DNA from: Pseudomonadota bacterium
Lineage (GTDB): Bacteria; Pseudomonadota; Alphaproteobacteria; GCA-2731375
Length of the DNA stretch: 64,000 bases
Assembly (NCBI GenBank): GCA_027623205.1
Contig: JAQBYC010000003.1
Location: 1 to 64,000 of the forward strand
Direction: 5' to 3'
Shown in pieces: positions 3,850 through 53,722 of this stretch. Every line of letters begins with the position of its first letter. Within the stretch, counting starts at the first letter, position 1. Both the position numbers and the translations under genes were made by a program. The notes beneath the pieces are model-generated. The model searched no databases, was not told where the DNA came from, and saw nothing but the letters and a program-made list of their open reading frames with translations.

Positions 3850-3953
3850 CCAGAGAAATTTTTTATTAACTGGAGTCGCGAACGCGACTTGGTAATTGGT
3901 TCAATATCTCTATTTTGACGGTCAAGCGCACATTTGGATCAGATGTGCTCTAA
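3850..3953 (+). repeat. Copy A of ~105-bp triple-hairpin intergenic repeat
   Basis: AACTGGAGTCGCGAACGCGACTTGGTAATTGGTTCAATATCTCTATTTTGACGGTCAAGCGCACATTTGGATCAGATGTGCTCTAA aligns to the other five copies. Confidence 0.8.
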
Positions 3954-4558
3954 CGCTTCCGCAGCAGAAATATGCCCTGCTCGCCGAGCAGATTGGCGAT
4001 GCCGGGTGTAACCCCGATGGGTTTGGCGTTGCCCTTGCGGTCCAGGGTCAGGCCTTGTTCGATGTGCAGGTCCATGGCATCGCACAATTCCATAAAATCC
4101 AGGATCGTACACAGATGGATGTTGGCGGTATCGTACCAGGGCACGGGCAGGTCGGCGGTCACGGGCATCCGGCCCCGGGTCGCGAGGTCCCAGCGAACCC
4201 GCCAATAGCCGAAATTCGGAAACGACACGATGGCGTGCCGGCCTATGCGCAGCATCTGTTCCAGAACCAGGCGGGGATAGTGCAAAACCTGCAGGCTTTG
4301 GCTCAAAATTACGACATCGAAGGCGGCGTTGGGATAATCCACCAGATCCTTGTCTGCATCGCCCTGAACCACGGACAGGCCCCGGCTGACCGAGGCGTTG
4401 ACGCCATCCTGGCTCAGTTCCATGCCCCGGCCATCAATGTTTCGCGCCTGTTGCAGGAAATCCAACAGGTCGCCATCGCCACAGCCGATGTCCAGCACCC
4501 GTGCGCCGGACGCGACCATACCCGCCAGAACCGGAAAATCCGACCGTATGGCGCTCAC
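3950..4558 (-). CDS. metW: Methionine biosynthesis protein MetW
   Basis: SAM-methyltransferase-like [15 protein letters not shown]; 4-nt overlap with metX. Confidence 0.93.
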
Positions 4559-21318: not shown

Positions 21319-21422
21319 CTGGCGTACATTTGATCCTGATATGCCCGGGGTATTCAGAATAAGGAAATTGAACCAATTGCCTACGTCGCGTTGGCGACTC
21401 CAATTAGTCGTAAATTGTACTG
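21319..21422 (-). repeat. Copy D of ~105-bp triple-hairpin intergenic repeat
   Basis: Reverse complement TAATTGGAGTCGCCAACGCGACGTAGGCAATTGGTTCAATTTCCTTATTCTGAAT... aligns to copies A and C. Confidence 0.75.
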
Positions 21423-21537
21423 GGCATCCGTACGGTGTTTGCAGGCCTGCGGTCCAAAGCCGCCGGCAAGCCGTCGGCCGTGGCGCCCTGGCGTGGCCGA
21501 AAAAACCAATCGTGGTTCGATGAACATCAAATGCGGT

Positions 21538-25761: not shown

Positions 25762-25868
25762 CTAGAGCAATTGAACCAATCATTTGGATTCGCTTTAGAT
25801 ATCTAAGTGGTTGGTTCAATTGCTCTTTTCTTAAGAGCCCGGGCATGTTTAGAAGAAACATGCTCTAG
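25762..25868 (+). repeat. Best-preserved copy (copy 1) of ~105-bp triple-hairpin repeat
   Basis: CTAGAGCA/TGCTCTAG terminal inverted repeat; 16-bp perfect inverted repeat AGAGCAATTGAACCAA/TTGGTTCAATTGCTCT; GCATGTTT-AGAAG-AAACATGC hairpin. Confidence 0.9.
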
Positions 25869-26853: not shown

Positions 26854-26956
26854 CTAGCGCACATTTGTTCTGAATGTGCTCAGAATTTTCAGAATAGAGC
26901 AATTGAGCCAGATGCTTAAGTCCCGTCCGCGACTCCGATTAATTGCAGAATACTCC
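26854..26956 (-). repeat. Copy C of ~105-bp triple-hairpin repeat
   Basis: Reverse complement ATTAATCGGAGTCGCGGACGGGACTTAAGCATCTGGCTCAATTGCTCTATTCTGAAAATTCTGAGCACATTCAGAACAAATGTGCGCTAG aligns to copy A. Confidence 0.82.
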
Positions 26957-26976
26957 AATATTACAGCGCGCTTCCG

Positions 26977-52343: not shown

Positions 52344-53519
52344 ATGCGGGTCCTTGATGATCTGTCCCCGGGCGGGGCAAGGGTGCTGGTGCGGGTCGAT
52401 CTGAATGTACCCATGCGGGATGGCCAGGTCGGTGATGCGACCCGGATCGAGCGGGCCGTCCCCACCCTTTCCGAGCTGGCCGGCAAGGGCGCCAGAGTTA
52501 TCGTGCTGTCCCATTTCGGCCGGCCCAAGGGTCGCGTGGTGCCGGCCTTGTCGCTGGCGCCACTGGCCGGACCTCTGGGCGCGGCCCTGGGCCGCCGGGT
52601 CGCCTTCGCAAGCCTGGCCACGGCGCCAGAAGCGGTGGCAAATATGACCGACGGCGATGTCTTGTTGCTTGAAAACCTCCGCTTTGATCCGGGCGAGGAA
52701 GCCAACGGATTGGACTTTGCCCAGGCATTGGCGGCGCTGGGCGATTTCTATGTCAACGACGCTTTTTCCTGCGCCCATCGGGCGCATGCCTCGACCACAG
52801 GCTTGGCCTATCTGTTGCCGGCGGCTGCGGGCCGGGCCCTGCAGGCCGAACTGGCGGCCCTGCAGGCGGCCCTTGCCAGCCCACGGCGGCCCGTGGCGGC
52901 ATTGGTTGGCGGGGCCAAGGTTTCCTCCAAACTGGCGGTCCTGGGTCATTTGCTGGACAAGGCCGATCAATTGATCATCGGCGGCGGCATGGCAAATACC
53001 TTTTTGTTCGCCAAGGGTCTCGCCATCGGTGCCTCTCTGTGCGAAACCGATCTGGCCCAAACCGCCCGGGAAATCGTGGCCAAGGCCGACAAGGTCGGCT
53101 GCGATATTGCCCTGCCGGTGGATGTGGTGCTGGCAAGGGACCTGCGCGCCGGGACCGACAGTATCACGGTGTCCGTGGACCAGGTGCCTGACGGTATGAT
53201 GATCCTGGATATCGGTCCGGCCAGCGTGAGCGATCTGACCCGGCGTCTGGCTGGATGCCGGACACTGCTATGGAACGGTCCTCTGGGCGCCTTTGAATTC
53301 CCACCCTTTGATCGTGGTACAGTCCAGGTGGCCCAAGCCGCCGCGGCGCAAACCCGGACCGGCGATTTGACGTCTGTCGCCGGCGGTGGTGACACCGTAG
53401 CGGCCCTGCGCCACGCCGGCGCGGCGGACGATTTCACCTATGTCTCCACCGCCGGTGGCGCCTTCCTGGAATGGCTTGAGGGCAAGGTCCTGCCAGGCAT
53501 CAAGGCGCTGGAGATCTAG
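52344..53519 (+). CDS. pgk: Phosphoglycerate kinase
   Basis: RVLVRVDLNVPMRDG, VLSHFGRPKG, GGGDTVAAL. Confidence 0.97.
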   Translation: MRVLDDLSPGGARVLVRVDLNVPMRDGQVGDATRIERAVPTLSELAGKGARVIVLSHFGRPKGRVVPALSLAPLAGPLGAALGRRVAFASLATAPEAVANMTDGDVLLLENLRFDPGEEANGLDFAQALAALGDFYVNDAFSCAHRAHASTTGLAYLLPAAAGRALQAELAALQAALASPRRPVAALVGGAKVSSKLAVLGHLLDKADQLIIGGGMANTFLFAKGLAIGASLCETDLAQTAREIVAKADKVGCDIALPVDVVLARDLRAGTDSITVSVDQVPDGMMILDIGPASVSDLTRRLAGCRTLLWNGPLGAFEFPPFDRGTVQVAQAAAAQTRTGDLTSVAGGGDTVAALRHAGAADDFTYVSTAGGAFLEWLEGKVLPGIKALEI

Positions 53520-53620
53520 AGCGATTTTCAATCAATTGGATTCGCTTTAGCGATCCAAATAATTGGTTTAATTGCTCTTTTCTTAAGAGTCCCAGCATGT
53601 TTAGAAGAAACATGCTCCAG
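53516..53620 (+). repeat. Copy 2 of ~105-bp triple-hairpin repeat, overlapping pgk stop codon
   Basis: CTAGAGCGATTTTCAATCAATTGGATTCGCTTTAGCGATCC...AATTGCTCTTTTCTTAAGAGTCCCAGCATGTTTAGAAGAAACATGCTCCAG aligns closely to copy 1. Confidence 0.88.
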
Positions 53621-53722
53621 CGTGATTTTCAATTGATTGCAGTCGCGAACGCAACTTTGGTTGGCTGGTTCATTTGCGCCGTTCTGAAGTTTCCGAGCCT
53701 ATTTGGATCATATGTATTCTGG
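53615..53722 (+). repeat. Diverged tandem copy (copy B) of the same repeat
   Basis: CTCCAGCGTGATTTTCAATTGATTGCAGTCGCGAACGCAACTTTGG...GAGCCTATTTGGATCATATGTATTCTGG aligns to copy A. Confidence 0.72.

Follow-up and report, generated by a model that had tools for sequence, protein, structure and literature searches.

A mobile 99-bp two-palindrome repeat, often at gene ends, from one genus of uncultured marine Alphaproteobacteria

Six intergenic segments of similar sequence recur within 64,000 nt of one alphaproteobacterial contig (JAQBYC010000003.1, positions 1–64,000, hereafter the window; assembly GCA_027623205.1, hereafter the parent genome or G000). What kind of element are they, and why do several sit directly at the ends of genes? 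An initial annotation of the window had proposed either a non-autonomous mobile element or a structured RNA element at the 3' ends of genes. No Rfam family matched the window at the gathering score.

Six copies and one architecture

All six segments and their common layout were present as first annotated, with coordinates accurate to 1–2 nt, and they form a 105-position alignment with a mean column identity of 76%. A covariance model built from the six copies scored five of them, which are its own training sequences, at E = 5 × 10−26 to 4 × 10−22 in the window, and the sixth (53617–53722) scored 89 bits in a search of its own genome. The consensus of 59 copies spans 105 positions (CTAGAGCAATTTTCAATTAATTGGAGTCGC-loop-GCGACTTAAGTAATTGGTTCAATTGCTCTATTCTTAAGAGTCCGAGCATGTTTGGAAGAAACATGCTCTAG) and consists of a first palindrome with a nested apex stem (PAL1, positions 4–62), a linker of ~15 nt containing TTCTTAAGAGTC, and a second palindrome (PAL2, positions 78–102). 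The element had first been described as a triple hairpin; instead, it has two palindromes joined by a linker, and the supposed first hairpin is the apex of PAL1, the supposed central TTGGTTCAATTGCTC block its 3' arm. Both inverted repeats reported at the outset, the terminal one of 8 bp and the internal one of 16 bp, are perfect and lie in the copy at 25762. When pairing partners were shifted by 1–3 columns as a control, paired cells fell from 73–87% to at most 57%. One further model, R2, was dropped because PAL1 was missing from its predicted structure, and a strict de novo scan for double palindromes recovered few of the known copies. The copies in the window are as follows.

Copy 1: 3850–3953, plus strand; core 3853–3950; GAGTC at 3873–3877; the right end forms the TAG stop (reverse of 3950–3952) of minus-strand metW (3950–4558)
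Copy 2: 21319–21423, minus strand; GAGTC at 21396–21400; both ends decayed (CCAG/CCAG)
Copy 3: 25762–25868, plus strand; 107 bp (2-bp insertion) with near-perfect palindromes; CTAG at left and CTAG at right; GATTC at 25787–25791
Copy 4: 26854–26958, minus strand; GAGTC at 26931–26935
Copy 5: 53516–53620, plus strand; PAL1 53519–53577, linker 53578–53592, PAL2 53593–53617; two GANTC sites (53539–53543 and 53587–53591); the left end forms the TAG stop (53517–53519) of pgk (52383–53519)
Copy 6: 53617–53722, plus strand; decayed, GANTC lost
Copies 5 and 6 stand in tandem with a common 4-bp junction, CCAG (53617–53620), at the YTAR position described below

Searching the parent genome (5.02 Mb) with the covariance model, as the initial annotation had proposed, provided an independent test of the six-copy family and returned at least 150 matches from 1097 candidates. 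We counted 92 distinct copies in 836,597 bp sampled from this genome, which extrapolates to about 500 copies in the 5.02-Mb genome; this is an estimate, as the sample was weighted to large contigs. Many of the copies are located no more than 300 bases from a contig end (e.g., G000 C162:9–113, C13:75–280, C44:96–201), which suggests that the repeat breaks short-read assembly and that copy counts are underestimates. The family is present in each of the 11 genomes of the genus, with 5 to at least 150 matches each, and almost no copies were found outside it: none of 30 relatives outside the genus matched at E ≤ 1 × 10−3, and across 289 genomes of the class, one that lies outside the genus gave a single match at E ≤ 1 × 10−4. 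A genome of the same taxonomic family gave a single match (7 × 10−6). Among the genomes searched, the repeat is nearly confined to one genus of uncultured marine Alphaproteobacteria, the named members of which are Black Sea and SI-labelled MAGs (we read SI as Saanich Inlet) listed as Rhodospirillaceae or Alphaproteobacteria. BLAST of the consensus against plasmids gave no match, and viral contigs yielded 52 exact 16-mer matches and no full copies. Two longer sequences may be set beside the family: genome G013, of the same taxonomic family and outside the genus, holds one two-palindrome sequence of ~137 bp with CTAG ends and GGAGTC (L251:1501–1637), and genome G005 holds a relative that is longer and divergent, its enlarged PAL1 apex having GAATC on one side and GATTC on the other (L095:17830–17951).

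Mobility, target site and the search for a mobiliser

Occupied and empty orthologous sites were compared over ~0.96 Mb with a sister species (G010, ~85% identical). Most of the 37 flank-matched comparisons, made in two directions (~30 distinct sites, some poorly aligned), were occupied in only one of the two species, so the comparable sites are mostly polymorphic in both directions; a handful, including the site of copy 4 (L101:815–920 in G010), were occupied in both species. G010 also carries 29 copies of a private subfamily that is absent from the G000 sample, and the low divergence of these copies (7%) indicates a recent expansion. Together, the polymorphic sites and this species-specific burst bear out the suggestion of a mobile element: the family is mobile and displays the presence/absence pattern of MITEs. 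Most sites carry traces that either insertion or precise excision would leave, a third genome (G009), also seemingly empty, being available at one site only.

At base level, clean empty sites are a single YTAR (CTAG, TTAG, CTAA or TTAA), and occupied sites have TA on both sides of the element (positions 2–3 and 103–104); the Y and R bases of the empty site sometimes differ from those at the occupied junction. Among 66 full copies, position 4 is G in 65 and position 102 is C in 61, while C or T predominates at position 1 and G or A at position 105, and bases further out are unconserved. Because positions 4 and 102 are nearly fixed and positions 1 and 105 vary, the moving unit is 99 bp long (GAGC...GCTC) and flanked by TA. 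This pattern agrees with a duplication of TA, and a 4-bp duplication of YTAR was ruled out on the same grounds. Of five pairs of adjacent copies, three (copies 5 and 6 among them) overlap by exactly 4 bp, which is what insertion of a new copy into the terminal YTAR of an older one would produce. We propose that the 99-bp unit would insert at the TA within YTAR and end up with TA on each side, and that this TA is probably a true duplication made by a transposase acting in trans, although TA duplication and an element-borne TA read alike in sequence.

The absence of a transposase from the window, noted in the initial annotation, holds for the window's contig, which had no match to the three transposase families searched. 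Elsewhere in the genome there are IS630 (PF13358), IS4/IS5-type (PF01609) and RAYT (PF01797) loci, and the search for terminal ends matching those of the repeat found none with GAGC-type ends among them. IS630 was the best TA-inserting suspect, as IS630-type transposases insert at TA and duplicate it (PMC2170065), but the copy with readable ends has TATACCAA-type ends rather than GAGC, and G010 yielded no IS630 transposase. A single-strand transposase (HUH, IS200/IS605 or RAYT-like) might instead recognise the hairpins, with TA carried by the element and no target duplication; such a mechanism would leave insertion traces identical to those of TA duplication, the ends are palindromic, and the genome holds two Y1_Tnp (RAYT-like) genes. 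We consider it unlikely, however: the same GAGC/GCTC stands at both ends of the 99-bp element, whereas the known IS200/IS605 ends are asymmetric, and one of the RAYT-like genes (L152:141–1154) is flanked by several inverted copies of a repeat of its own, AGGTCTTTyATTTTGC, which is unrelated to the 99-bp family. Separately, insertion sequences were found at or inside copies of the repeat, often at the CTAG end (L159, L160) or within the linker (L155, L163), which suggests that IS elements use the repeats as landing sites; REP sequences likewise attract IS insertions (PMC1525189).

GANTC sites and gene ends

The elements are rich in GANTC, with densities of 11.3 and 16.3 sites per kb compared with 0.8–0.9 within genes and 1.7 in the remaining intergenic DNA; the copies make up ~1% of the DNA yet hold 36–38% of intergenic GANTC. 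The site lies at the PAL1 apex (positions 24–28) in 88 of 122 copies, and a CcrM gene is present (E = 6.5 × 10−154 to Caulobacter CcrM). It is conceivable that copies are kept mainly as stations for CcrM methylation, with a cell-cycle or regulatory role, and the site density would fit this, as would the retention of GANTC with a different N in the main subfamilies (GAGTC, GAATC, GATTC) and its occurrence in the G048 and S. meliloti elements discussed below. Individual copies nevertheless lose the site at about the general rate (the PAL1 GANTC is kept in 45 of 77 non-redundant copies), and the copies avoid promoter gaps, so we regard this role as quite unlikely to be what maintains them. The idea of GANTC as a specially conserved block was likewise unsupported, its columns being no more conserved than the rest in non-redundant copies. 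For a mobile element, GANTC may matter more for movement than for each host locus, and CcrM methylation may help to time that movement.

Gene context was assessed with gene calls from a home-made gene finder, on which the null expectation for stop codons rests. Full copies coincide exactly with a neighbouring gene's stop codon in 26/56 cases in G000 and 24/49 in G010, compared with 27% and 22% for the same placement at non-coding YTAR sites (p = 0.002 and 4 × 10−5); pooled, this is 50 of 105 copies against 24% expected (p = 3 × 10−7). None of the 106 copies assessed lay inside a gene (overlap > 60 bp with a predicted gene), though genes hold over half of the YTAR sites, and divergent (promoter) gaps contain only 8 of 105 copies compared with ~29% of intergenic base pairs; copies are probably purged from coding and promoter regions. 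Of the 15 polymorphic sites inspected, 12 have the element at the end of a gene; there the end of the protein is nearly always unaltered, with a slight shortening in two. Five stop codons are TAA in the species with the empty site and TAG in the occupied one, and the reverse was never seen. TA followed by the element's initial G, read on each strand, gives TAG at both junctions, so an insertion in a TAA or TAG stop recreates a stop, usually the same codon, and would usually leave the gene unharmed.

This target rule also bears on the second suggestion of the initial annotation, that of a 3'-end RNA structure used by the host as a terminator or mRNA stabiliser, duplicated and retained for that role. 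Copies are concentrated at the 3' ends of genes and in gaps between convergent genes (19/56 and 21/49), one orientation is in mild excess in tandem gene pairs (37:20, p = 0.03), and compensatory pair changes in PAL2 exceed those in column shuffles (86 compared with a mean of 30; 0/500). Even so, the RNA reading is very unlikely and is not needed: the target site and the TAG-regenerating ends already predict the 3' placement, orthologous loci mostly do not retain copies, and terminator-like sites are not in excess (among the window's copies there is one, only at the junction of copies 5 and 6). The covariation is largely at the level of subfamilies, with little in PAL1, and folding of single copies relative to shuffles is uneven (z = −9.1 at 25762, −4.8 at 53516, −0.4 at 26854 and +0.6 at 53615), such that two of the six copies in the window fold no better than shuffles. 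We therefore favour, with a probability of about 0.8, a non-autonomous, MITE-like mobile DNA element of the two-palindrome CIR/RIME kind that inserts at YTAR and regenerates stop codons.

Relation to CIR, RIME and other palindromic repeats

The repeat had initially been matched to no named family, and this stands for its sequence; its architecture, in contrast, is that of the alphaproteobacterial CIR and resembles that of the rhizobial RIME, both of which have names. CIR denotes the Caulobacter CcrM-associated intergenic repeats, reportedly described by Chen and Shapiro in 2003 and treated in two reviews (PMC2229807 and PMC10969869). As described in PMC2229807, CIRs are ~110 bp long and intergenic, with TA termini, two arms joined by a linker, and GANTC located at a terminal loop or partly within it. 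The 99-bp family shares this size, the two inverted repeats and linker, the GANTC by the terminal loop, the strictly intergenic location, the TA termini and the alphaproteobacterial host, a likeness drawn from the published description and not from the sequences of CIR1–4 (Caulobacter, Brucella). It differs in its ~500 copies per genome and in having empty sites that point to TA; for CIR, PMC2229807 leaves mobility undetermined and lists target duplication as unknown. Stop-codon regeneration is not stated for CIR in the available parts of PMC2229807 or PMC10969869, nor are target and stop-codon rules stated for the CIR/RIME kind in the literature available.

Similar layouts occur in two further alphaproteobacterial lineages. 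Genome G048, from another family, carries a two-palindrome repeat of ~130 bp with three GANTC sites in dozens of places (L315:10057–10186; L335–L364). Like the 99-bp family it has TAGAGC...GCTCTAG ends, a PAL1-linker-PAL2 order and GANTC, with AAGACTCAGAGCAT in the linker compared with AAGAGTCTGAGCAT in the 99-bp family; unlike it, the repeat is ~130 bp long with other palindromes. Stop-codon placement in G048 was 6/14 for ends in frame compared with 9/28 off frame. Few TAGAGC..GCTCTA pairs were found in other Alphaproteobacteria. The second lineage is S. meliloti, where a repeat found de novo on pSymB, which is probably RIME1, reads CTA-GAGC-PAL1, a linker with GAATC, and PAL2-GATC-TA; its copies at L369:25531–25668, L367:2115–2235 and L370:41598–41710 have CTAGAGC and GATCTAG ends, and GAATC lies in the linker of all three. 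RIME1, the Rhizobium-specific intergenic mosaic element, reportedly described by Osteras in 1995, is said to be ~108 bp long with two large palindromes. The profile of the 99-bp family gave no significant match to 250 kb of pSymB (best E 2–3); the two repeats have a blueprint in common and are unlike in sequence.

Among other palindromic and TA-flanked elements, RUP and Correia/NEMIS (TA-duplicating MITEs) and IS630/Tc1 have TA termini in common with the 99-bp family, and the MITEs are also small and non-autonomous. REP/BIME are likewise dispersed extragenic palindromes, but the 99-bp family is longer, has a linker and is flanked by TA, and the RAYT genes are unlinked to it. Because the CIR features are present, by description, and the blueprint recurs in G048 and on pSymB, we classify the repeat as a new family, specific to this genus, of the CIR/RIME kind. 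It is possible, though doubtful, that CIR, RIME, the 99-bp family and the G048 family form one alphaproteobacterial superfamily, in which GAGC/GCTC ends and YTAR would make insertion at stop codons coding-neutral and which a transposase, possibly timed by CcrM methylation of the GANTC sites within the element, might mobilise.

In the 99-bp family, insertions are polymorphic, empty sites are available, the boundaries are exact and the target follows a rule. Because the ends restore a stop codon, landing at a gene end costs little, and this is a simple reason why a genome can hold hundreds of copies. Since the blueprint also occurs in two other lineages of Alphaproteobacteria, whether there is a common mobiliser becomes directly testable.
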